Source: a virus. From it: a stretch of DNA of 38,221 bases. The translations under genes and the position numbers were made by a program. Numbering within the stretch: position 1 is the stretch's first letter; each line of letters begins with the position of its first letter. Shown in pieces: positions 1 through 38,221 of the stretch. Where the stretch lies: IMG/VR virus record IMGVR_UViG_3300007511_000054, positions 1 to 38,221 of that record; one strand, 5' to 3'. Below the pieces are notes generated by a model. It ran no database searches and was not told the origin of the DNA. It saw only the letters and a list, made by a program, of their open reading frames with translations.

Positions 1-119
1 CTTAAAACTGCATCTTTCGTTCCAAATGATTTCCAACCCTTTGCGAGTAGGGTTCGACAAGCGTGGAATCTTAACGAGCGAAGGTGTGGTTTCGAGGCAG
101 GGAGGCAACTAAAAATGTA
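1..119. repeat. Terminal direct repeat, left copy
   Basis: The first 119 bases are identical to the last 119 (38103-38221). Last gene, structured element and first gene read sensibly across the join, so the map is circular or terminally redundant. A length of 119 equals a k-mer size used by common metagenome assemblers. The simplest reading is therefore an assembly overlap on a circularly permuted genome, not a physical 119-bp terminal repeat. Confidence 0.95.
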
Positions 120-286
120 TGATTCACCTTTTCATAGAACTATTGCTCTTATTTTTCATCTTTCTTCTGGGATTTTATTATGGACGACATGGAAAAATTA
201 CCTACCAAGATGGATACAAAAAAGGAGTCCAAGATAATATTCAAAGACAACGTGAAATTAAAAAAGAAAGATGGGGAATTAAATAA
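119..286 (+). CDS. Small single-pass membrane protein (55 aa)
   Basis: A strongly hydrophobic segment at residues 1-21 (MIHLFIELLLLFFIFLLGFY) is followed by YGRHGK and a charged, Lys/Arg/Gln-rich tail. This looks like an N-terminal membrane anchor with a basic cytoplasmic tail. AGGGAGG at 99-105 lies 13 bases upstream of ATG 119. A second ATG at 115 in another frame is better spaced but gives a less protein-like 40-residue product. The stop at 286 touches the first base pairs of the next RNA fold. The pattern of hydrophobic stretch, then LGF-x-x-GR, recurs in the gene at 680. Function unknown. Confidence 0.55.
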   Translation: MIHLFIELLLLFFIFLLGFYYGRHGKITYQDGYKKGVQDNIQRQREIKKERWGIK

Positions 287-367
287 CCCCTTCTCGCAGG
301 GTTTCGAGGGAATTTTTACCAGCGCAAGCTGGTGTGCAGAAAAGCCTCTCGAAGCCCGTTGAGAGGG
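287..367 (+). ncRNA. Structured RNA domain A with GCAA tetraloop
   Basis: Three nested helices can be drawn. The outer pairs 288-295 with 361-367 (CCCTTCTC with GAGAGGG, one bulged T). The middle is 12 bp, 299-310 with 346-357, with two G-U pairs. The tip is a perfect 6-bp hairpin, ACCAGC (318-323) with GCTGGT (328-333), closed by the GNRA loop GCAA. A stable nested fold outside any convincing reading frame supports a functional RNA. The ten bases at 300-309 also occur at 88-97, so the 3' strand of the middle helix could pair with the junction element instead. Confidence 0.72.
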
Positions 368-373
368 AATTAA

Positions 374-452
374 GATATTGTTGGGCAGTGGCTATCGTGA
401 GAAGTCACGGGCACCTTCTTAGGAGGGTGGCTGATGCGGCCACAACAATATC
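374..452 (+). ncRNA. Structured RNA domain B, branched and closed by 10-bp stem
   Basis: GATATTGTTG (374-383) pairs perfectly with CAACAATATC (443-452). Inside are TGGC (389-392) with GCCA (439-442), hairpin CGTGA-GAAG-TCACG (396-409), and a 7-bp hairpin 412-418 with 423-429 around a TTAG loop. The outline is a compact branched RNA of tRNA-like size. It lacks a T-arm consensus, a plausible anticodon arm and a CCA end, so I do not call it a tRNA. It is separated from domain A by seven bases. Confidence 0.7.
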
Positions 453-670
453 CCCTTCTTATAAGTTCTGATAGATGGTGTAAAAGGGAAAACACTATAT
501 TCTTAGTAAAATCGGTCTAAGAATGAATACTTACATCGGTTGTTAGCCCGTCGGAATGGAGTAACCGCTCTATGACTTTAAGTCGACATGATCCGTAAAA
601 AATCTGCAAGGTGACCAAGTGACGAAAAGAATCATACGAATTCCTTGCTCTATCAGAACTTAAAAGAGGG
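453..670 (+). ncRNA. Structured RNA domain C closed by 14-bp stem
   Basis: Bases 462-475 pair perfectly over 14 bp with 649-662, closing about 170 bases. The stem can extend outward, 453-460 with 664-670, with one bulge, which captures the GAGGG of the Shine-Dalgarno for the gene at 680. Internal helices: 499-506 with 517-524 (8 bp), 537-541 with 563-567 (5 bp), and 606-611 with 643-648 (6 bp, able to stack on the closing stem). The loop at 511-516 and the strand at 535-540 share ATCGGT, so they could compete for 564-567. No convincing reading frame crosses it. Confidence 0.72.
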
Positions 671-679
671 AGGCTACCA

Positions 680-805
680 ATGGACTACTACACACCGTGT
701 TTCATGTTCCTGTCACTGATCCTTGGATTCGTGGCAGGTAGGAGGTGGGAGAGAAACCATGCAAAAACCACGCAAGACAGTCACAAGAGTGTGTCCTCGG
801 TGTGA
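680..805 (+). CDS. Small single-pass membrane protein (41 aa)
   Basis: A hydrophobic segment at residues 7-20 (CFMFLSLILGFVAG) is followed by RRWER and a hydrophilic tail. AGAGGGAGG at 665-673 is a strong Shine-Dalgarno just upstream of ATG 680, and part of it can be buried in domain C. The LGF-x-x-GR pattern resembles the protein at 119, although the sequences are otherwise different. The 3' end overlaps the next gene by 47 bases. GC content rises here relative to most of the genome. Function unknown. Confidence 0.55.
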   Translation: MDYYTPCFMFLSLILGFVAGRRWERNHAKTTQDSHKSVSSV

Positions 806-920
806 CACAGAGAAAAAGTGCTTTATCCTTTCGGAATATAAGCACCACTACAAGGTCAAGTGCGATACCTGTCATCACATCTTCTTCACAACCATTAACT
901 TGTTCTTCACCAAGAACTGA
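759..920 (+). CDS. Small zinc-ribbon protein (53 aa)
   Basis: Two CxxC pairs, CPRC and CDTC, are spaced as in a zinc ribbon, within a basic protein. I chose the ATG at 759, behind GGGAG at 747-751. The frame is open from 723, but that ATG has no ribosome-binding site and lies deep inside the preceding gene. The spacing resembles short ribbons that bind nucleic acid or host RNA polymerase, though that role is inference. It sits in a run of three GC-rich small genes. Confidence 0.6.
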   Translation: MQKPRKTVTRVCPRCDTEKKCFILSEYKHHYKVKCDTCHHIFFTTINLFFTKN

Positions 921-929
921 GGAGGTTCA

Positions 930-1130
930 GTGCCCGACGTCACACTCTCACGCACTGCTTGCGGCAAGTGCAGCGACACAGACGTTGATCGTCTGATCTT
1001 TCGTGACATGACACTCAAGCGGTGCAAATGCAGACTAGTCTGGGCAACATGCTCTATCTGTGGAGGGGTTTTGGTAAGGTTCGACAACGGACAGTATCAA
1101 TGCAGCTTGTGCACGTTCAGCACGGAGTAA
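930..1130 (+). CDS. Small Cys-rich zinc-binding protein, GTG start (66 aa)
   Basis: Cysteines occur as CGKC, CKC, CSIC and CSLC, enough for two zinc sites. GTG 930 is chosen because GAGGAGG stands directly upstream, around 918-925. Base composition over 680-1130 is clearly more GC-rich than the replication and structural genes, suggesting recent acquisition. Function unknown; the fold resembles tandem zinc ribbons. Confidence 0.65.
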   Translation: MPDVTLSRTACGKCSDTDVDRLIFRDMTLKRCKCRLVWATCSICGGVLVRFDNGQYQCSLCTFSTE

Positions 1131-1158
1131 CCCCTTCACATTTTCTTTATAATTATCT

Positions 1159-1248
1159 ATCTTCCGTCCTCAAACAAATTGGGGCATACAATTGAATACG
1201 TCTCTTTGGCCGAGTGTGGTCGTTACCTTCTCGGCAGGGGCGGAAGGT
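1159..1248 (+). ncRNA. Possible structured leader between small genes
   Basis: ATCTTCCG (1159-1166) can pair with CGGAAGGT (1241-1248), 8 bp with one G-U, enclosing a hairpin GCCGAG (1209-1214) with CTCGGC (1230-1235). The element lies in the 141-base gap before the gene at 1272, which has no good adjacent Shine-Dalgarno. A TATAAT-like hexamer at 1148-1153 could be a promoter, but no convincing -35 accompanies it. Weaker than the folds at 287-670. Confidence 0.4.
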
Positions 1249-1271
1249 GGAGAAATATTAACTAAACACTT

Positions 1272-1475
1272 ATGACTAAAACTCACACAGCAACAGCTCA
1301 ATGCGAAGACTGTAAAGACATAATTACCAGCGAATATGGTGGACATTTTGTTCAATGTAAATGTGGTAATTCATACATAGACCAAGAACGATCAGAGGCT
1401 GCGTATGTCCGTCTTGGTGGTAATCTTGTTGAATGGAGCCGGACTTGTCCTAAAGATTGTAAAGCACATTTATGA
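1272..1475 (+). CDS. Small zinc-ribbon protein (67 aa)
   Basis: CEDC near residue 14 and a later CKCG pair suggest one zinc ribbon, with two more cysteines near the C-terminus. From here to about 4.85 kb the genes run rightward in tightly coupled ATGA or TAATG-type overlaps. The stop overlaps the start at 1472. Family not recognised. Confidence 0.65.
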   Translation: MTKTHTATAQCEDCKDIITSEYGGHFVQCKCGNSYIDQERSEAAYVRLGGNLVEWSRTCPKDCKAHL

Positions 1476-3219: not shown

Positions 3220-3657
3220 ATGCCGAAGGTTCAATGTTCAAAATGTTCAAAATATACTTACAAAAGACCCTATTTTCTTAAAAGAAATAAGAATATATTT
3301 TGTACTTTAGATTGTTTTTATCTATTCTTGAAAGATAGAAAGTTTACTTCTGAACATAAAATGAAACTTTCAAAAGTTAAAACAGGTAAGAAGAATCCTA
3401 GATGGAAGGGTAATGGAGTAGGTTATGGTGCTTTACATACTTTTATAAAACGTAGAAAGAATAAACCATTTTTTTGTGAAGATTGTAAAGAAAATAAAAA
3501 ACTTGATTTAGCAAACATCTCTCAAGAATATAAACGCGATCTTGATGACTGGGAATGGTTATGTCGAAAATGTCATATGGTTAAAGATGGAAGATTAAAA
3601 AATAATTATCAGAAAATGAGAAAATTTCAGGCTGAGAAACTGGAGGAGGTTTTGTGA
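3220..3657 (+). CDS. HNH endonuclease with NUMOD3-like repeat (145 aa)
   Basis: An N-terminal zinc ribbon (CSKC, later C-x3-C) is followed by SEHKMKLSKVKTGKKNPRWKG, the NUMOD3-type DNA-binding motif found in phage homing endonucleases. A C-terminal HNH core follows, with CEDC, CRKCH and KDG. Such proteins nick or cut DNA, often next to their own gene. The gene is more AT-rich than its neighbours, consistent with a mobile free-standing homing nuclease. Its 3' end overlaps the next gene by four bases. Confidence 0.75.
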   Translation: MPKVQCSKCSKYTYKRPYFLKRNKNIFCTLDCFYLFLKDRKFTSEHKMKLSKVKTGKKNPRWKGNGVGYGALHTFIKRRKNKPFFCEDCKENKKLDLANISQEYKRDLDDWEWLCRKCHMVKDGRLKNNYQKMRKFQAEKLEEVL

Positions 3658-5227: not shown

Positions 5228-8200
5228 AGAAGGTGTTCTTCTTTTTTTCGTTGACCTTTTTCTTGGTTTAACTGTTGGTGCTTTAAGATTAAGAGAAGGT
5301 GTTTTTCTCTTTGTTTCTTTTGGTTTTAATTGTCTTACAATAGCTGGAGTAAACTGTCGTTTTAATTCTTGAACTCCTTTTAATTTTCCTGTTGTTTTAT
5401 ATCTTTCGGCAGTTGCTATTTCTTCTAAGTTACCAGCAAGGCTAGACATAAAAGTCACGATTCTCGGCACACCTGCAAATGTGGAGGGTCTAAGAGCCTG
5501 AATAGTTGTTGATGCTTCACGCAATGCCTTACTTTTAAGTTGTCCAGCAAAAGTTTTATCATCCTCATCTTTAAAAGCTGCTATTAGCATTATCACAAAA
5601 GAAATAAGAATCAATCCTCTAAATTCCTCAATAAATTCTCTTGAATTTGTGTTGATCTTTCTACTCCTCACTTGTTTAATTAGATTATTCCAGTTAGAAA
5701 TTGTTGTGTGAAGAACAGGGATAGCCCAAGTTTTATATTGAGTCATTGCATTTCCAACTGAGGTGGTTCCAACAATAGACTTAAAGTTTTTTACAACACG
5801 TTGTCTGCCAATATCAAGACGCAACTGAGCAATTCGTTCCGGAGATATTGTTGTTGTTTCAAATTCCTTTTCAGTCAAAGAACCAAGTACCCATTCTTTG
5901 TTTGCTTGTAGTGTAGCAATGGAGAAAAGACTAAATAAACCATCTTGAAGTTTTTCTCCGATGTCTTTCTCTGGCATAAACAACTCTTCAATAAAACTAT
6001 GCCCAAATAATTGCTCATATTTCTTTGTGAAAGCTCTACCCTTTCTAGTATTTTGTCTTTTAATTCCCTTAATCATTACTTTGGGTCCAGCACCCTTAAA
6101 TGTTACAACCTGTTCTCCAACGGTTGCAGCCACACCTGTGGCAACATTAAGTCCAAGATCAATCATTGAGGTGAAAGTTCTTGCAAATCTAAGTGAAATA
6201 TCAACTTTTCCACCTGGCTTAACTAATCCCCCAAATGAGAACGGCCTACCACGTTTATTATTGAGCCATTCGTTAATGAATTTTCGTAGTGTTCTATCCA
6301 TTTGAATTCCTTTTTCCGTCATTCTCTTCGGCTCAAGCGAATAAACATACATATCAACAAGCGGAACAACAGAATCTAAAGCAATCTTTTTATAATAAGT
6401 TTTAATATACGCCTCGTATGCCTTGGCTGCATTTTTCGTTGGTGTCAGTTCTCCTGTTCTTTGTAAAGCAAATTGAAAAAACTTCTCATACGGCAGAATG
6501 GTTCCAGTGTCATCATCAATGATATTGAATGTCATCTTATCCAATTCATTCTGTTTAAAAACTTCTTTAAACGCAACAAGTAACCCATCGTCTTTCACAG
6601 TCTCAAGAAACCCACGCCTTATGTGAGTGTAATAGTTTTCAATACCATCAGTTAAAACTTTTCTTTTCAAAAGCTCATCATAAGCCTCTTTGAAAGTAAT
6701 TTGCATTTCAATAGCCGCTTCAAGTTCTTCTGGTGTCATTTTTTCTTCTACCTTCTGTTTGTCTTTTGATTCTAACCATTCGATAACTTTTTCATCCTGT
6801 GGAATCAACATCTTTCCGAGAGTCCTGTTACTAGTTCTTGCCAACTTGATCTTATTTCTAAACGAAATAAGTTTGTTTGTTAAATCAATTTCGTTCCTAG
6901 CCCATTCAGTATGAAAGGTATTTACAATCACTTCATAAAGTGGATTCTTTCTAGCAAGAGCAACATCATAAAGAATTTTATCTAATCCAGTTGATGTAAT
7001 TTCTTCAAGCTCTGATAACGGCACACTGGCATCCTGCGCCAATGCCTCTCTTATTTCTCTAATAGTTCTAGCACCTGCAATTTTTGTATTATCAATCACC
7101 TCCATGCGCCTTGGAGAGATAAACACATCTCCCATTTGATATGGCTCAAGAGCCGCAAAGAATTGTTCAAGTTGCGGAAGGTTCATTTTACTTATTACGG
7201 GTAATTGTAGTGCCTTTTGGAGATTCTCATAAGCGATAAATTTACGATCCCGAATAAGTTGCATGACCTCTGACTTCTTTTGGACTGTCTCTTGAAACGA
7301 AATAATTTGAGTGTCTAAATCATTTAGATACTTATCAAATTCCGCATCTGTCATTAGCGAATAGTCTCTCTTGGTAATTTGTTTCATCTCCCTTGACGAT
7401 AGATTAAAGAACTCCTGAACAGCCCTCAGTCTCACACGACGATGTTGTGTTCTTGATCGTTTACCAAGATCAGTTAAGTAACGTTCAAACGTAACCTTCT
7501 CGCCTCTAACTTCTGCTTTAATCGCATCTAGTTTGTTTACCACATTTTTATATTCCGGATCAGTCTTTTCTAAGTGCGATCGTTTAAGTGCTTTTTCATT
7601 TACATCCAGTCTTGATAAGTTTAACTGATCCTCAAGAAAATCTATGCCACTATAAAATCCATGTTCTTGTGCAAACATTTCAACTGGCAGAACTTCCTCA
7701 TATCCTTTCTTAATAAATCTCTCACGTGCATCAGGCTCAACCAAAGTCAACCTGCCCTTTGGACTGCGCATAATAAAACCTTCTCCGGAAGTATCTTGTA
7801 ATGTTCCTTCGCGCTTGAAATAAATATTGTTCTTAATGGCTGATAAAACATCAGGTTCTAATTTCTCTTGCATTTCTTTATTGAATTCAACCTCTGTCTC
7901 AATTTGAAAAGACGCTTCGCTTTCATCAAATGCTTTTTCAATTTCTCGTTTCCTTTCTTTAAGGCGAACAACCTCTTCTGGTTCAATCTTTCTTTTAAAG
8001 TTGGCTTGAATATCACCGAAATCAAGAACCAACGTGCCTGCATCAGTTTGTTTGGTAAACATTTTGGTATCTGTGCCACTAACAACAACTGGATTACTTT
8101 GTTCCTCCTGAAAAGCAAATTCAAAGAATCTTCTTGTAACATCAATGTTTTCTGGTGCAAACACTTTTCTAATAGCCTCAAAAATGTTCTCAAAGAATTT

Positions 8201-18537: not shown

Positions 18538-18576
18538 ATGGTTATTGGTTAAGTTTATGAAATAATCAATTCAGTC

Positions 18577-18592
18577 CTGCCCCGTAGGGCAG
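18577..18592 (-). terminator. GC hairpin between late genes
   Basis: CTGCCC and GGGCAG form a 6-bp hairpin around a four-base loop in the 65-base gap between the small acidic gene (18603-18755) and the connector gene. There is no T-tract on the minus strand, so a processing or stabilising hairpin is as likely as termination. Confidence 0.4.
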
Positions 18593-18602
18593 AGTCAATT
18601 GA

Positions 18603-18755
18603 CTATTCTGCTGCCTTTTCGTCTGCTTCTGGAGCCTCTTCAGAAGGTTCCTCTGCTGGCTCTTCGGCAGGAGTCTCTTCGACTGGTGCTTCTGGAGCCT
18701 CAGCCTCTGGTGCCGCTTCTGGTGCTGCTTCTGGTGTTTCGTTTTCATCAGACAT
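18603..18755 (-). CDS. Small acidic Pro/Glu/Ala-rich protein (50 aa)
   Basis: The ATG at 18755 opens a 50-codon frame consisting almost wholly of Glu, Ala and Pro in PEA-type repeats. The same composition appears in the protein at 26405. It is probably disordered. Another frame over the same bases gives an implausible basic Gln/Arg product, which I reject. No function assigned; an assembly or scaffold accessory role is possible. Confidence 0.5.
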   Translation of the reverse strand: MSDENETPEAAPEAAPEAEAPEAPVEETPAEEPAEEPSEEAPEADEKAAE

Positions 18756-18879
18756 AAACGTATTTTAAATGAATTAGTGGGCTAATCTTCCCATCACTCG
18801 ATTCATGTCAAACTTTTTTGAAGATTATTATTTGCACAAATCGAAAGTGAGATGACTAGCATCCTTTTTCCCCTGCCTC

Positions 18880-18920
18880 CTTTAAGTCTGCGGCGCTACC
18901 CTCGTCGGCTTAAAAGAAGC
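18880..18920 (-). repeat. Inverted repeat in late intergenic gap
   Basis: On the minus strand CTTTTAAG and CTTAAAGG can pair over 8 bp, with one G-U, around a 22-base loop, followed by AGGAGGCAGGGG and an A-rich stretch. It lies in the 172-base gap after the holin-like gene. AAAGGAGG is a strong Shine-Dalgarno, but the ATG after it opens only a 19-codon frame. I see no gene in the gap; it may hold a regulatory hairpin. Confidence 0.35.
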
Positions 18921-18927
18921 GTTGTTA

Positions 18928-19104
18928 TTATTTTTTCCAAATTTTATGTACTACTCCAACTCCAGCGAAAGCCATTCCTAGCTCATTGAGTCCTGGAATA
19001 TCATAACCCAAGGCAAGCAAACCTCCATCAACAAACAATACAATTCCTCCAAATATTGTCTTTTTACCAGATATAAACTCCCATAGTCTTAATAATGCTT
19101 TCAT
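18928..19104 (-). CDS. Small membrane protein, holin-like (58 aa)
   Basis: MKALLRLWEFISGKKT leads into a hydrophobic GG-rich segment (residues 18-34, IFGGIVLFVDGGLLALG), then a second weaker hydrophobic stretch and a Lys-rich end. This size and pattern, right beside the peptidase and the XhlA-like gene, fit a small holin or holin-like protein. It ends in two consecutive TAA codons. Confidence 0.6.
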   Translation of the reverse strand: MKALLRLWEFISGKKTIFGGIVLFVDGGLLALGYDIPGLNELGMAFAGVGVVHKIWKK

Positions 19105-25149: not shown

Positions 25150-26382
25150 TTAGGCTGCTGTGTAGGCATTAGAACGGATCTTTACGGCTACCATTCTTCG
25201 TGCGCCTTCTGCAAAGGTTTTCTTACCGTAAACATTCCAAGAAACAATGTCGTCACCAATATATCCGTCACGAGATTTAATCTTCATATTTGGCTTAACT
25301 TGAATCACAAGATCCACACATCCTTTGACTCCAAAGAAGTTGTGTTGGATTTGTGCTGTTGCTGTCCATTGGTCCGTTGTGTCAGTAAGAGTATCTCCAA
25401 CAACGATAAATCCTCGTCCTTTTGAGGTTACTGCTGTTGAAGTTGCGGAAGCAGTTGCAGCAAAATCTTTAAGAAGAGCCTGATTAGCTGCTGTAAGAGC
25501 TACTGAAAGAGCATCGGTAGTAGCAGGATCATTGATTGCCGCTGTGAAGTTTGTATTTGAAGCTGCTGCGTTATCACCAATAAGCACGTTTCCTGCTGTT
25601 GTACCAATATTTGTCACAAAAGTGAAAGTAACTGTTGTTCGAGTTCCTTCACTATCCGGAATATTCAATGTGACTGTATCTCCATTGGTTGGTTGTGTTG
25701 CAAGGGCAAGAGTACCTGTCCAGTAAAGACCATTACTCTTGTAAATTCGATAATTATCATACATTCCAATAAAACCTCGTTCACCTACTTTATCACCCCA
25801 AGCCGTCTCACGTTCAAGGATATTCTCTTTAAGAACACGAATTACTTGTGGTGAAAGAATTGCAAAACGTCCTTCTTGTGGAGCATTTCGACGATCTAGT
25901 TTCTCTGTTGCTGCAAGGAATACATCTGACACATTTCCTGATGTCAAAACAATTCCTTGATCTGCTGTACCACCTAAGTCAGCAGCATCAACTGTATTGT
26001 CTGCATTTGCTACTTCTCCAAGAATATCTCCATCAATACCATTTGAAAGAGCTACCGCAGCCTCATCAGCATACAAGTTACGAACAGCATAGTTGTGTTG
26101 AATTACATCAAGATCCTTAACGTAAAAAGCTACTTCTTTCTCTTGGTCAATCGTCAAGCTCTCATCTGTATCTGTGATGTCCTGTCGGGAGTAACTTCCT
26201 TCTGATCCCAAATCATTTACCGTAAGATTTGAACGGTATGGGCGATGAACAGTATCGCCGTTTTTTAGCATCGCTGTTTCCTCAAAAGATGCAATATCTC
26301 GAAACACGTCCTCTCGGTAGTGCTTGAGTTGCATTCGCTTTGACCAATATTCAGGAAACGATGCGCTTACATCATTAGCCAT
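25150..26382 (-). CDS. Major capsid protein with inserted domain (410 aa)
   Basis: Position after scaffold and before decoration genes, and the N-terminal layout (SKRMQLKHYREDVFRD; DQEKEVAFYVKDLDV; then a helical backbone RFAILSPQVIRVLKEN), identify an HK97-fold coat protein, probably of the P22-like branch. Residues about 225-343 form a Thr/Ala/Val-rich insertion unlike the core, resembling small surface domains seen in other capsids. The C-terminal FAEGARRMVAVKIRSNAYTAA is typical of the family. Assignment by context and pattern. Confidence 0.8.
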   Translation of the reverse strand: MANDVSASFPEYWSKRMQLKHYREDVFRDIASFEETAMLKNGDTVHRPYRSNLTVNDLGSEGSYSRQDITDTDESLTIDQEKEVAFYVKDLDVIQHNYAVRNLYADEAAVALSNGIDGDILGEVANADNTVDAADLGGTADQGIVLTSGNVSDVFLAATEKLDRRNAPQEGRFAILSPQVIRVLKENILERETAWGDKVGERGFIGMYDNYRIYKSNGLYWTGTLALATQPTNGDTVTLNIPDSEGTRTTVTFTFVTNIGTTAGNVLIGDNAAASNTNFTAAINDPATTDALSVALTAANQALLKDFAATASATSTAVTSKGRGFIVVGDTLTDTTDQWTATAQIQHNFFGVKGCVDLVIQVKPNMKIKSRDGYIGDDIVSWNVYGKKTFAEGARRMVAVKIRSNAYTAA

Positions 26383-27597: not shown

Positions 27598-29376
27598 TTA
27601 TGCCGGTAAAGCTTGTTGAGGTTGCTGAGGTGGTAATAAAGCACCGGTTTTAGGCTTAACATCTATTGTTGCAAGCCCAACCATGTCGAGAATCTTTTCA
27701 AAAGCCGGCATATCAAGAATTGCTGGGTTTTGGACCACTGCTTGCATAACCGTTGTAAGTGTTTGAAGCATTGCAGGACTCTCGCTTTCATCTGTTACAA
27801 AGCAAGTAACTCTTTTTTCAAAGTCCAAATAGTCCTTTGGAAAGTCCAGAAACAATGAGTCTTGTTTTTCAGCCTGTTCTCTAACAAGAGTTTTCACCAT
27901 CTCAATCTGCTGTGTCGTTGGTTTAAGCCCACTCATTAGGAAATCTTTTGTCGTCTCCCAAACCTTTGCGTTAATAAAATGCTCACGAAGATAATCCAGC
28001 TCGTCCTCATCAACAATCTCAAGGATACCTTCCTTTTTCATTTCCTTTTCAAGCTCTGGTAAGACCCAATCGTTAAACACTTCCTCGAGAAAGATTCCAT
28101 AGTCTTCTCTGATAAAGTCAAAGAGCTTAGCCGCATTTTGATCTAGTAAAGCCCCGAGAGAAAACGGAGTACCAGACGGAAGAGTCTCACCGGTTGTAAC
28201 CTCAAAAGCATTGGTAAGGTTTCTAAGAACATTTGAAACTTCGCTTGATAATAGCTGAGAACTTGAATTGTCTTTTACTTGTGTATCAACCCTTTCAAGC
28301 ATTGTTTTTGGAACCTCAGACGCTCCAAACTTCATAATAGACCCATTTTCAACGTCTGAAAGGATGTTTTGAAGGACTGTTTTGTCTCTTGTTTGAAATA
28401 CAATCAGTTGAGATAAGCGCATTGCCATGAGCATCCAGTTGCCTTGAGTATTTTTAACCTCTTGCATTGGGAAACATTCCTCGTAAATTCCTCTTCCCAG
28501 CCATCTACCGTCAACCTTTCGATAGTGAAGTTCTTTAAACGGCATCTCTTTTAGCTCTGTCTTAAACAGAATCAGACCCTCATCGTTACTTTTTACTGAT
28601 GAATCTTTACCTTGTTTAGAACTTTGGGGCATTACTACAAGAAAATTTGCAAGAACAAGATCCTCGTCATCTTCTTCTTCTGTTAAAAGTTTTTTCTCAA
28701 CATATCCATAAAATTCATGGACTGCGATATATTGAGACTTTTTAAACTGTTGTGTAGTGGTGTTTTCATCTCCGACATAGTTTTCCTGTCGGAACGTAAT
28801 AAAGTTTTTAATAGCAATTTCGATCTGGTCAGCATCCCAACCTCTTTCTTTTTGCTTTCTTAACTCGATTGGAGTGTAATAATGCCTTTCCGAAGTCCAG
28901 CCATCATTCAAAGTTTTGGCTGTTGGATCACATGCTAAATTTCGTAAATCAACAAAATCAAAAACTCTGGAACCTTCAACCTTCTTAACTACGATTGAAC
29001 CGATCCCAGAGACTTTTTCCGGTATTAGGTTTAGCTTCTTAGCAATTCCGTTCTCCCTCATCCAGTCTTTAGCTTTTCGCCGGTAGAGCCACGACCGGAA
29101 ATAATTACTCTTTCCGTTTATTGCCTTGAATTGAATATCCTTTGTGTCTATGTCTATGTTTTTGGCTGCGTTTCTTACTGCTGGAGTAGACACATCAAAG
29201 AATACCTTTTGGCCTATTGAGTCTTCGTTACCGTCAACAAATTGCGCATTGGCATATAAATGAATACGCTTAATTGTTTCTGACTGGTTAAAATCATAAC
29301 CATCAACAACGCGCACAGGCTTTTGTTGATAGTCCTTCTCGCATCTTCTTATGATTTCAAATATTTTACTTTGCAT
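27598..29376 (-). CDS. Portal protein (592 aa)
   Basis: Directly after the large terminase, with the usual portal length for short-tailed phages. Typical elements are an N-terminal helical part, RNAAKNIDIDTKDIQF, the stretch KELHYRKVDGRWLGRG (clip and stem area), and a helical C-terminal half with QQIEMVKTLVREQAEKQD. The portal is the ring through which DNA enters and leaves the capsid. The family call rests on context and overall pattern. Confidence 0.75.
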   Translation of the reverse strand: MQSKIFEIIRRCEKDYQQKPVRVVDGYDFNQSETIKRIHLYANAQFVDGNEDSIGQKVFFDVSTPAVRNAAKNIDIDTKDIQFKAINGKSNYFRSWLYRRKAKDWMRENGIAKKLNLIPEKVSGIGSIVVKKVEGSRVFDFVDLRNLACDPTAKTLNDGWTSERHYYTPIELRKQKERGWDADQIEIAIKNFITFRQENYVGDENTTTQQFKKSQYIAVHEFYGYVEKKLLTEEEDDEDLVLANFLVVMPQSSKQGKDSSVKSNDEGLILFKTELKEMPFKELHYRKVDGRWLGRGIYEECFPMQEVKNTQGNWMLMAMRLSQLIVFQTRDKTVLQNILSDVENGSIMKFGASEVPKTMLERVDTQVKDNSSSQLLSSEVSNVLRNLTNAFEVTTGETLPSGTPFSLGALLDQNAAKLFDFIREDYGIFLEEVFNDWVLPELEKEMKKEGILEIVDEDELDYLREHFINAKVWETTKDFLMSGLKPTTQQIEMVKTLVREQAEKQDSLFLDFPKDYLDFEKRVTCFVTDESESPAMLQTLTTVMQAVVQNPAILDMPAFEKILDMVGLATIDVKPKTGALLPPQQPQQALPA

Positions 29377-29378
29377 AT

Positions 29379-30971
29379 TTATCGAAGAATTTGAGGTTTA
29401 TTCTTATTTTTATGTATTGCTATTAAATTTCTTTCTTCTGCTTCATTATCTTTTTTTGTTACTTGAGCATAATCTTTCATTTGCCATGCGATTGCGCAAG
29501 CTGTTAAAAGATCGAAATGTCTAGTTGTTAAACGCGCGTCTTCCACTTTGTCCATTAAATCATGTCTGGAATAACTCTTTGCTTCTATTATAAGATCGGA
29601 ATCGTTCAAAAGTAAATGCCCGTCTTCAACAGCTTTTGAAAGTGCAAAGAGCATTTTGGGCTTAGTAAGTAAGTTTGTATGCCAACCATACTCAGTCGGA
29701 GCCTTTGGTCCGAGCTTAGTATCCTTGCCTTTTGTTGTATGTAAATTTAGACCGAGTTGCCTCGCTCTTAATATTGTAGCATGTCCGTGATTATTTTTCT
29801 CTATTCCAACATAGTTTTTACCATACATATTGCTCTCTCGCTCAATCTCATCTCCAAAAATATCCGGTCTGATCTCATTGCTTTTAAATGTCGCAACCAC
29901 GTTGGCAGGCACAGTAGAGAAGTCAATGAATACAGAGGTCGAGCTGTCGAGACCAACACCTCCGGCAACGTCGTGACCTGAACCGTATCTATGAGAAGGG
30001 TTGAATTTCTTAAAGATTTTAAAGTCTGCAACAACTTTTTGTGGTTCAAGTACGAGCATATTATCCAGAGTCTCTCGGTCAAACAGCGCATCTTTTGATG
30101 CAGAAGGCTGACACATTCTCTCACCTTCAAAGTCCTCATCATCCTCCCGCATTTGTTCAATATCAGCGTGAGAGTAGCGACTTGCCCAAGTAATAATCCC
30201 TTTGTGGATAATCGGTATGATTAAAACCTTTTTCCTTTCAGACTGTTTTAGAACAAGTTTATGTACATTTCCAGCCTCAGAAATGTAGTTGCAGGTGTAA
30301 ATACATACTCCATCCAGTGAAAGACCTGTCCTGGCCTCTTCCATGTTGTCCCAGATAGTCTTAGTAATTCGTCCGGATCGCAATGTTTTTCTATTCTCAA
30401 AATCCTCAAACCAAATGAAATCAGGTCTTGCATCTTCTTGAATTGACCCACGTTGATCTGTTCCTACTGTGTCAGCTAACACCCGAACACCTGTTGAGGT
30501 TGTGAAAGATGACATTGTTTCTTCCCTTTTCTTTGTGGTTTTAGCAAAGATATCCGGGTACATCTCTTTAATCTTTGGAGAAATGAGCATGTTATAAATG
30601 TCTGTTACGATCTGAGACGAGTTCCCTTTATCGTAAGCAAGGATTTTCAAGTATCTCATCATGTTGTCTTCGTCGTTGGTAATGCAAAAAGCAAGGAACA
30701 ATTTAGTCCTTGCTGTTTTTGCTGCACCACGAAAAGCAATATCAGTAAAAGAATCAATTTCGCTTCTATATGCTTTCAAGTTAAGCTCGTCCATTTCCTT
30801 GTGAAAGTCTGCGTCTGGGCTTGTGAAGTATTTGTGGAAGAAATAACGCGCCCAGAGATTAAACTTCAAAAGCACTTTTCCATTTGAATCCTTGTCATTA
30901 AAAAGAAACAATGCTTTTTTCTCAGCAAGAGAACCATCAGCTAGTAGTTGTTGGATTGAGGTGTTCATCAA
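29379..30971 (-). CDS. terL: Terminase large subunit (530 aa)
   Basis: ATPase domain: Walker-A-like RGAAKTA at residues 81-87 and Walker B FIWFED at 185-190, followed by the adenine-binding and coupling region. The nuclease domain begins near residue 325, with GHD (Asp334) and GIEKN (Glu391) as candidate RNase H-fold metal ligands and a further HFDLL motif near the C-terminus. It drives DNA packaging and cuts the concatemer. It overlaps the small-subunit gene by 35 bases. Confidence 0.88.
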   Translation of the reverse strand: MMNTSIQQLLADGSLAEKKALFLFNDKDSNGKVLLKFNLWARYFFHKYFTSPDADFHKEMDELNLKAYRSEIDSFTDIAFRGAAKTARTKLFLAFCITNDEDNMMRYLKILAYDKGNSSQIVTDIYNMLISPKIKEMYPDIFAKTTKKREETMSSFTTSTGVRVLADTVGTDQRGSIQEDARPDFIWFEDFENRKTLRSGRITKTIWDNMEEARTGLSLDGVCIYTCNYISEAGNVHKLVLKQSERKKVLIIPIIHKGIITWASRYSHADIEQMREDDEDFEGERMCQPSASKDALFDRETLDNMLVLEPQKVVADFKIFKKFNPSHRYGSGHDVAGGVGLDSSTSVFIDFSTVPANVVATFKSNEIRPDIFGDEIERESNMYGKNYVGIEKNNHGHATILRARQLGLNLHTTKGKDTKLGPKAPTEYGWHTNLLTKPKMLFALSKAVEDGHLLLNDSDLIIEAKSYSRHDLMDKVEDARLTTRHFDLLTACAIAWQMKDYAQVTKKDNEAEERNLIAIHKNKNKPQILR

Positions 30972-33218: not shown

Positions 33219-33232
33219 GATTTTGCTTGAAA

Positions 33233-33319
33233 AACGTGGTAGAAAACTCTCACGTCTCTAGGCGGGGTTCGCCCCAAGGTTTCACGTTAAGCCTTAGCAC
33301 CTAGGGACATGAGAGTTTT
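33233..33319 (+). ncRNA. Structured leader of the replication gene, with apparent pseudoknot
   Basis: P1 is a perfect 10-bp stem, 33243-33252 with 33310-33319. P2 is 9 bp, 33254-33262 with 33300-33308 (one G-U). Between them branch P3, GGGG-TTCG-CCCC (33264-33275), and P4, 33276-33282 with 33289-33295 around loop CACGTT. The 5' bases AACGTG (33233-33238) match that loop perfectly over 6 bp, giving a pseudoknot. ACGTG (33234-33238) can instead pair with 33251-33255 and break P1 and P2. P1's 3' strand contains the GAGAG Shine-Dalgarno and is followed by T6, so it could block translation or terminate transcription. It resembles a switch; no known class recognised. Confidence 0.72.
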
Positions 33320-33323
33320 TTAT

Positions 33324-34037
33324 ATGGCTTCACCTCAATTAGAAAATGGATATACAAAAATAGCCAATGAGATTTTGGAAGCATTAAGTCGTGTTCCATC
33401 TTTAGGAAGCGAAGCCTTTCAGATTCTTATGCTTATAATAAGATATTGTTATGGTTTTCAAAGAAAAAAAGCTGAATTAAGTATAAGTTTTATCGCTAAA
33501 GGAACAGGAATGAGAAAAAGAAATGTTAGTCGGGCTATCGAACGGCTAGTGTCCAAACGGATGATAGTACGTGAAAAAAGTATGATAACCTTCAACAAAA
33601 ATCACGATGAGTGGGTAGTGTCCAAACGGACAGGGGGTGTCCAAACGGACAGGGGGGGGGTGTCCAAACGGATGAAGAAGGTAGTGTCCAATCGGACAGA
33701 CAAGAAAGATAACTATAAAGAAAACTATAATAAAGAAAACAAGCAGCGTCCTCAAACGGACGCGGATGAGATAAATCTTATAATGGAAAAATTCCAAATT
33801 CATCTTAACCAGAACATCAATTATGGAAATAAAACTCAACGTCAAGCAATTAAATTTCTTTTGAAAAAACATGGGATAGATAAACTTAAACGCTTAATCT
33901 TATTTTGTGCCAAAATTCAAAATGAACAGTTTGCACCAATAGTAACAACTCCTTGGCAATTAAAAGAAAAAGAAGCCCAGATTGCTGCTTATTGGACTCG
34001 TAAAAATAATTCAAAAGATTCATTAACCGTAGTTTAA
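33324..34037 (+). CDS. Replication initiator, lambda O-like (238 aa)
   Basis: MASPQLENGYTKIANEILEAL opens a winged-helix domain, and KAELSISFIAKGTGMRKRNVSRAI at residues about 45-70 carries the recognition helix, as in phage replication protein O. I chose ATG 33324 because this N-terminus matches the family. The in-frame ATG 33309 lies inside the leader stem. The middle is basic, encoded by the iterons, and the C-terminal half is helical, probably contacting a helicase or loader. A run of nine G at 33652-33660 interrupts the iterons. Confidence 0.82.
   Translation: MASPQLENGYTKIANEILEALSRVPSLGSEAFQILMLIIRYCYGFQRKKAELSISFIAKGTGMRKRNVSRAIERLVSKRMIVREKSMITFNKNHDEWVVSKRTGGVQTDRGGVSKRMKKVVSNRTDKKDNYKENYNKENKQRPQTDADEINLIMEKFQIHLNQNINYGNKTQRQAIKFLLKKHGIDKLKRLILFCAKIQNEQFAPIVTTPWQLKEKEAQIAAYWTRKNNSKDSLTVV
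33547..33763 (+). repeat. Iterons and probable replication origin inside the initiator gene
   Basis: TGTCCAAACGGA or a close variant starts at 33550, 33619, 33638, 33661 and 33685, with spacings of 19-24 bases in the central cluster. Several units have dyad symmetry, TGTCC-AAAC-GGACA. A sixth related unit at 33746-33763 forms a 6-bp hairpin (GCGTCC-TCAAAC-GGACGC). The stretch at about 33700-33740 is very AT-rich. Iterons inside the O gene beside an AT-rich unwinding region are the layout of the lambda origin. Confidence 0.82.
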
Positions 34038-37932: not shown

Positions 37933-38094
37933 ATGAAAGATAAAAAAGAAATGTCAGCAGCCACATGGACAATGACAACCAATGCTTTATATTTTGTTGA
38001 ATGTCCACATTGTAAAAACACAATGTTAATGTCCAAAGAACCTTTAATTAAACGCCTTGTAAAATGGGCTAAGCAATTACCGGAAGTTTTTTAA
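37933..38094 (+). CDS. Small CxxC protein (53 aa)
   Basis: ATG 37933 follows one base after the preceding stop. CPHC near residue 24 is the only cysteine pair, so zinc binding would need a dimer or His ligands. The Lys/Trp-rich C-terminus is helical. It is the last gene before the junction RNA element, whose closing stem starts four bases after its stop. Confidence 0.5.
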   Translation: MKDKKEMSAATWTMTTNALYFVECPHCKNTMLMSKEPLIKRLVKWAKQLPEVF

Positions 38095-38097
38095 CTC

Positions 38098-38207
38098 CCT
38101 CCCTTAAAACTGCATCTTTCGTTCCAAATGATTTCCAACCCTTTGCGAGTAGGGTTCGACAAGCGTGGAATCTTAACGAGCGAAGGTGTGGTTTCGAGGC
38201 AGGGAGG
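38098..38207 (+). ncRNA. Structured junction element before the first small membrane gene
   Basis: Inspection gives a closing stem of CCTCCCT (38098-38104) with AGGGAGG (38201-38207, equal to 99-105 at the left end). Inside are a stem GATTTCCA (28-35) with TGGAATC (64-70), carrying one bulge, and a hairpin ACCCT (36-40) with AGGGT (49-53). A helix between 14-19 and 79-83 is also possible. The 3' strand of the closing stem is the Shine-Dalgarno of the gene starting at 119, so folding could hide it. The element fills the gap between the last gene (ends 38094) and the first. I do not recognise the family. Confidence 0.55.
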
Positions 38208-38221
38208 CAACTAAAAATGTA
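38103..38221. repeat. Terminal direct repeat, right copy
   Basis: This is the exact copy of bases 1-119. With the eight bases upstream of it, this copy contains the whole junction RNA fold, including both strands of the closing stem. The left copy lacks part of the 5' strand of that stem. Confidence 0.95.

Follow-up and report, generated by a model that had tools for sequence, protein, structure and literature searches.

The gene-free interval at positions 287-670 of this virus raises the question whether it specifies a separate large phage RNA or a structured part of a messenger RNA. The window, i.e., the whole stretch of DNA analyzed, is an IMG/VR virus record of 38,221 bases in which positions 1-118 are identical to 38104-38221. 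Given this terminal repeat, the genome was read as circular, with the join falling inside a folded junction element, E0. The head and tail gene set is encoded on the - strand and the replication and early gene set on the + strand, and the folded region is placed within a + strand run of small genes. Coordinates are listed in Table 1.

Table 1. Folded elements, flanking genes, and motifs of the window
Feature	Position	Strand	Description
Junction element E0	38095-38221, also readable as 38095-38103 joined to 1-109	+	Identified by fold z, -4.3 to -4.9
Domain 1	287-368	+	Nested stem; z -6.1; pair probabilities
Domain 2	374-452	+	Branched; closed by 10 perfect bp, 374-383/443-452 (p 0.99)
Domain 3	453-670	+	Closed by 454-460/664-670 plus 14 perfect bp, 462-475/649-662 (p 0.97)
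Element E3	1131-1271	+	CCCCTTC right after the stop of 930-1130, then a stem of ~15 bp; reaches gene 1272-1475
GAGGGAGG, Shine-Dalgarno-like	666-673	+	Partly in the closing stem of domain 3; 6 nt ahead of ATG 680
Candidate 28-codon leader ORF	434-520	+	AGGAGG-7 nt-ATG; crosses the 5' arm of domain 3
ORF	37933-38094	+	Stop codon 38092-38094 directly 5' of E0
55-codon ORF	119-286	+	ORF call; small one-pass membrane protein (MIHLFIELLLLFFIFLLGFYYGRHGK...)
41-codon ORF	680-805	+	ORF call; second small membrane protein (MDYYTPCFMFLSLILGFVAGRRWERN...)
53-codon zinc-ribbon protein	759-920	+	Weak Pfam zinc-ribbon matches, best E 2.5e-4
66-codon zinc-ribbon protein	930-1130	+	GAGGAGG ahead of GTG start; Pfam zinc-ribbon matches weak, below cut-off
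Gene	1272-1475	+	Next gene 3' of E3
NinG-like	3976	+
NinB	4448	+
Major head protein	25150-26382	-
Portal-like	27598-29376	-
TerL	29379-30971	-	Head/tail gene set
O-like replication gene	33309	+	Replication/early gene set
RecT	35501	+
PD-(D/E)XK nuclease	36243	+

The product of gene 119-286 had no Pfam or PHROG match above threshold, that of gene 680-805 was without a PHROG match, and relatives of the small proteins adjoining the folded region were found neither in phages nor in IMG/VR. The interval had initially been annotated as the only gene-free stretch of more than 300 bases, which holds only if two - strand ORFs of about 60 amino acids each, 18566-18748 and 18928-19104, are genes. The protein encoded at 3220-3657 is of the HNH type and, with its weak NUMOD3 motif, resembles homing endonucleases.

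Fold strength and anatomy of the elements

The + strand of 287-680 was predicted to fold with a minimum free energy (MFE) of -148.1 kcal/mol, compared to -104.15 ± 5.47 in 100 dinucleotide shuffles of the whole region, none of which folded as well (0/100; z -8.03). The reverse strand reached a z of -4.51. The better fold lies on the strand of the flanking genes, and a large, structured, and strand-biased RNA segment is supported. Analyzed part by part on the + strand with 300 dinucleotide shuffles, z was -5.7 for domain 2 (369-452), -4.2 to -4.5 for domain 3 (453-676), and -7.6 for domains 1 and 2 together. The coding neighbors were not unusually folded (gene 119-286, z -1.0; 680-1130, z -0.9), so the fold signal is confined to the non-coding parts. 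The three consecutive folds between tiny membrane genes described in the initial annotation were thus recovered, each with a z of at most -4.2, and the additional fold at the junction was found where it had been placed.

Domain 1 is built of the helices 289-296/360-367, 299-310/346-357, and 318-323/328-333, the last carrying a GCAA tetraloop. An AGGAGG word sits in the hairpin 412-418/423-429 of domain 2. In domain 3, well-defined inner helices were limited to 556-562/567-573, 606-611/643-648 (pair probability of 0.93-1.0 for these two), and 619-622/632-635, and the 5' half was without a single fold, the MFE helices between 486 and 549 having p of 0.11-0.14. A candidate pseudoknot, 588-592/631-635, is possible in the modeled domain. 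The only Watson-Crick inverted repeats of at least 10 bp in the folded region are the 10-bp and 14-bp closing helices. Pair probabilities confirmed the GCAA-capped nested stem and both perfect helices read earlier from the letters; of the large domain with four internal helices, the 14-bp closure stood and the inner structure was settled only in part. The third element, E3, gave a z of -3.3 to -3.4 for 1128-1272, yet only -1.7 for 1100-1280.

Layout between stop and start codons

The folded region fills the spacer between two genes, opening with CCCCTTC at 287, the first base after the stop codon of 119-286, and ending at 670, 10 nt ahead of the ATG at 680. Likewise, E0 and, less strongly, 1131-1271 span the distance from a stop codon to the next start, and the flanking genes are co-oriented. 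E0 opens with CTCCCTCCC directly after the stop codon at 38092-38094 and closes with AGGGAGG ahead of gene 119-286. Genome-wide, the + strand has CCCCTTC at three sites and no others, 287, 452, and 1131, and a fold opens at each of them; shuffling of the block predicts 0.05 occurrences. For TAACCCCTTC, two occurrences compare with 0.003 expected. These motif observations, like those on GGAGG, are post hoc, and their nominal rarity makes them look stronger than they are. E0 and domain 3 close on GGAGG preceding the next start codon, 6 of the genome's 14 + strand GGAGG words fall in this 1.4-kb block, and genes 119, 680, 759, and 930 have an upstream GGAGG-type motif, which most other genes of the virus do not.

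In the predicted ensemble, these motifs were mostly paired, with a mean unpaired probability of 0.11 for gene 119, 0.00 for 361-367, and 0.14 for gene 680. When the footprint of a terminating ribosome was forced open in an occlusion calculation, the unpaired probability rose from 0.11 to 0.26 for the gene 119 motif and from 0.00 to 0.41 for the motif at 361-367; blocking the leader ORF region left the gene 680 motif unchanged. With a small rise or none, masking is predicted and the route of unmasking is not. For the candidate leader ORF, shuffles yield an ORF of this type in 0.4% of cases, a figure that is likewise post hoc. Promoter-like and terminator-like sites in 1-2400 were not above the shuffle background. 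This, together with the layout running from stop codon to Shine-Dalgarno-like motif, points to a segment of a polycistronic mRNA and not to an abundant RNA standing on its own. A similar layout was observed at 18845-18930 on the - strand, where a 12-bp stem masks AAAGGAGG right after a - strand ORF, with a z of only -1.2.

Searches for known families and relatives

The Rfam covariance search of the window returned no family at the gathering score, GOLLD and ROOL included, and at E up to 5 on 1-1300 just four sub-threshold chance matches; tRNA and tmRNA genes were absent from the window. Group I intron, group II intron, tmRNA, tRNA-like, RNase P, and riboswitch readings were dropped for want of an Rfam match or a tRNA/tmRNA call. 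The 14-bp inverted repeat resembles the a1/a2 repeats of a retron, but no reverse transcriptase was among the proteins scanned. A horizontal origin of the block was unsupported, its tetranucleotide distance ranking only 58 of 301 windows.

By blastn, the RNA matched nothing in 50,697 phage records (E up to 10) or in 72,556 plasmids (E up to 1). The TerL search yielded about 80 IMG/VR contigs, mostly with 51-66% identity, including a same-species fragment (100% TerL) that does not reach the RNA region. Nothing credible came from blastn and nhmmer searches of the TerL and RecT relatives, about 70 related phage records among them. The RNA, E0, and the adjoining proteins were without a counterpart in the TerL contigs, in 80 RecT relatives, and in the 50,697 phage records. 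The two covariance models (R1 and R2; domains 1 and 2, and domain 3), each built from this single sequence, were run over 2.3 Mb of DNA from relatives and recovered the window and nothing else. Exact-pattern scans of IMG/VR viral contigs with AAGGTGACCAAGTGACG and TAGGGTTCGACAAGCG gave chance hits, all in unrelated GC-rich contigs with dissimilar flanks. Two relatives share 17 bases with 476-492; the flanking sequence shows a chance match, and the stretch was rejected as a shared motif. Neither the RNA nor the junction element was found in 287 genomes of the phylum to which a TerL-bearing MAG belongs, and the TerL profile matched only that one MAG among them. The element has no relative in the collections searched, and absence there does not show absence in nature.

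Adjacency to tRNA genes is frequent in GOLLD and ROOL RNAs and is not a strict requirement. Like GOLLD, the region is a phage-encoded, large, multi-domain folded RNA; unlike GOLLD, it measures 385 nt, is wedged between two genes, and has neither a nearby tRNA nor an Rfam match, whereas many GOLLD members exceed 800 nt, have a conserved 3' region, and often lie beside tRNAs (PMC12286853). It resembles ROOL as a phage or prophage RNA with an extensive fold (PMC12286853) and differs in having no Rfam match, no tRNA island, and no sign in its sequence of an independent transcript. GOLLD and ROOL are discrete, abundant RNAs that form homo-oligomeric nanocages. The suggestion of a divergent GOLLD or ROOL relative was accordingly not upheld, given the missing Rfam match, a length half that of GOLLD, and no adjoining tRNA.

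Shine-Dalgarno use and structured gaps in the TerL clade

An upstream GGAG/GAGG/AGGA motif was present at 8% of TerL-clade ORFs, compared to 32% in RecT loci measured alike, and at 14% of ORFs in genomes of the phylum of the TerL-bearing MAG. The low Shine-Dalgarno use of the TerL relatives holds over a wide GC range. The GGAGG-rich block is odd for a member of a clade in which Shine-Dalgarno sequences are hardly ever used. The MAG carrying the TerL relative is 1.2 Mb, and most genomes of its phylum measure 0.5-1.2 Mb, sizes that would suit Patescibacteria; the two other MAG matches lie in Methylococcaceae bins, a second candidate host group. A study of Bacteroidia describes ribosomes that hide the anti-Shine-Dalgarno and an extended Shine-Dalgarno sequence on rpsU of many Flavobacteriales (PMC9976891); by analogy, one may speculate about a Bacteroidia-like arrangement in the present virus.

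Strongly folded gaps were somewhat commoner in the clade, with z below -4 in about 46 of 212 gap strands of TerL relatives (approximated from the best 45, the last still at z -4.04) versus 7 of 76 in control phages, a comparison in which shuffle numbers differ, strands are not independent, and some genomes overlap. The leader of the O-like replication gene (33230-33330, +) forms a three-way junction with a very long closing stem (z -6.3), and its end, at the start codon, is a run of T. The relatives L150 (before 6742, -) and L146 (before 12968) have large hairpins at the corresponding site. Other leaders of the clade are therefore folded too, which counts for a cis-acting role of the present region.

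Further candidate RNAs were observed in the relatives. Contig L100 carries a strongly folded non-coding region of ~600 nt on the - strand (6830-7842; 6988-7687) with a TTGACA/TATAAT promoter-like sequence and a terminator-like end; it recurs in L010, L011, L012, and L013, with no Rfam match in L100 or L013. A 616-nt structured non-coding region preceded by a TTGACA/TATATT-like promoter, also without an Rfam match, lies in L143 (179-794, +). A phage-borne tmRNA with an unusual tag ending VLA was identified by ARAGORN and Rfam in L078 (3583-3917), and a group I intron in L099 (347-564, -; Rfam RF00028, 59.6 bits). Gaps of relative G016 hold tRNA or tRNA-like genes (L156: 3076-3169, 4571-4656, 4665-4739, and 5122-5310), some with odd anticodon loops, two called by ARAGORN and the others by eye. 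A Leu-tRNA-like sequence recognized by eye in L007 (2390-2525), with an apparent insert near the anticodon, lies in a gap with z -9.9 and received no ARAGORN call. The most structured control gap was a 409-nt gap of a RecT relative (L178: 6859-7267; z -8.8).

Alternative explanations

A stand-alone RNA acting in trans, as the founder of a new ornate family functionally analogous to GOLLD or ROOL and either processed out of the early operon transcript or transcribed inside the operon, is unlikely. The strong multi-domain + strand fold, the GNRA loop, and the long perfect closing helices are what it would predict, and two TerL-clade relatives carry the long structured regions described above, promoter-driven by eye, one of them (L100) found again in sister contigs. 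However, the fold boundaries coincide with the flanking stop and start codons, promoter-like and terminator-like sites do not stand out, and neither an Rfam match nor a homologue turned up in any collection searched. There is a smaller chance that the spacer serves mainly RNA processing or stability, e.g., through RNase III sites, with no regulatory masking. Tandem perfect or near-perfect stems of 10-14 bp between co-oriented genes would suit this role, which leaves the recurring CCCCTTC openers and GGAGG closers unexplained and for which the domains are more elaborate than plain processing hairpins.

It is improbable that the region acts other than as RNA, whether as selfish elements built of inverted repeats whose ends resemble TIRs (CCCCTTCT...AGAGGG) or as DNA hairpins for replication or packaging. 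Domains 1 and 3 do share the ends CCCCTTCT and GAGGG, and inverted repeats fold on both strands, but the gene strand folds clearly better, G-U pairs make up 14 of 128 in the predicted fold, the inner sequences of the domains are unrelated, and the genome holds no further copies. The least credible explanation is chance folding of a spacer that is locally richer in GC and free of constraint, or else an assembly artifact where the contig ends. The GC content is ~45% in the folded region versus 38.7% genome-wide, and the region adjoins the circular join; against this, dinucleotide shuffles never match the native fold, and although the region was chosen by a reader, a whole-genome scan in 200-nt windows placed 301 (+; z -5.0) at rank 4 of 764.

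A proposed cis-acting structure in an early messenger

The favored reading, to which a probability of roughly 0.45 was assigned, is that the region belongs to a long early polycistronic mRNA, as an untranslated spacer whose three domains act in cis, a function that is predicted. Such structures are preferred over an ornate RNA acting in trans because of the fit from stop to start codon, the CCCCTTC openers, and the GGAGG closers. The pyrimidine arm would pair with and mask the GGAGG-type motif ahead of the next small gene, and the small membrane and zinc-ribbon genes would be translated only once the stem had been opened, whether by ribosomes terminating upstream, by binding of a factor, or by cleavage of the RNA. 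The hairpins may additionally set mRNA stability or processing.

Cis action is favored by the fold bias toward the gene strand (z -8.0 versus -4.5) beside unstructured coding DNA, and by the CCCCTTC openers, the clustering of GGAGG, and the predicted pairing of the motifs. Counting against it, homologues were lacking in the searched collections, hence neither covariation nor a conserved arrangement was available, and opening the stop footprint or the leader ORF frees the masked motifs slightly or not at all. With Shine-Dalgarno use at 8% in the virus and its clade, masking of GGAGG may be irrelevant in the host. Simple masking would also need less than 385 nt.

Known translational-coupling structures are usually short hairpins. 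In intercistronic coupling as described in a review, the ribosome-binding motif of the next gene pairs near the upstream stop codon (PMC12548453), and the present region is similar in being a spacer between co-oriented genes with the motif predicted to pair with sequence near the upstream stop. The paired arms here, unlike those of known coupling hairpins, bracket additional folded sequence of up to 175 nt, and support from the occlusion calculation is weak. In translational attenuation of the erm/cat type, a short leader ORF runs into a stem masking the next start. The candidate leader ORF, with its strong AGGAGG, likewise runs into a stem masking the next start; unlike in erm/cat leaders, there is no inducer or resistance gene, and blocking the leader ORF left the downstream motif masked in the calculation.

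It is unlikely, if conceivable, that the region founds a new kind of large phage RNA, or a modular class of intercistronic regulators clamped by CCCCTTC/GGAGG stems and using Shine-Dalgarno-type signals specially. As a separate RNA, the element would extend the very short list of large phage RNAs by an unrelated one. If it is regulatory, tandem elaborate mRNA folds would gate tiny phage genes where Shine-Dalgarno sequences are scarcely used, and the locus would offer a testable case for start-site choice in a Shine-Dalgarno-poor lineage.
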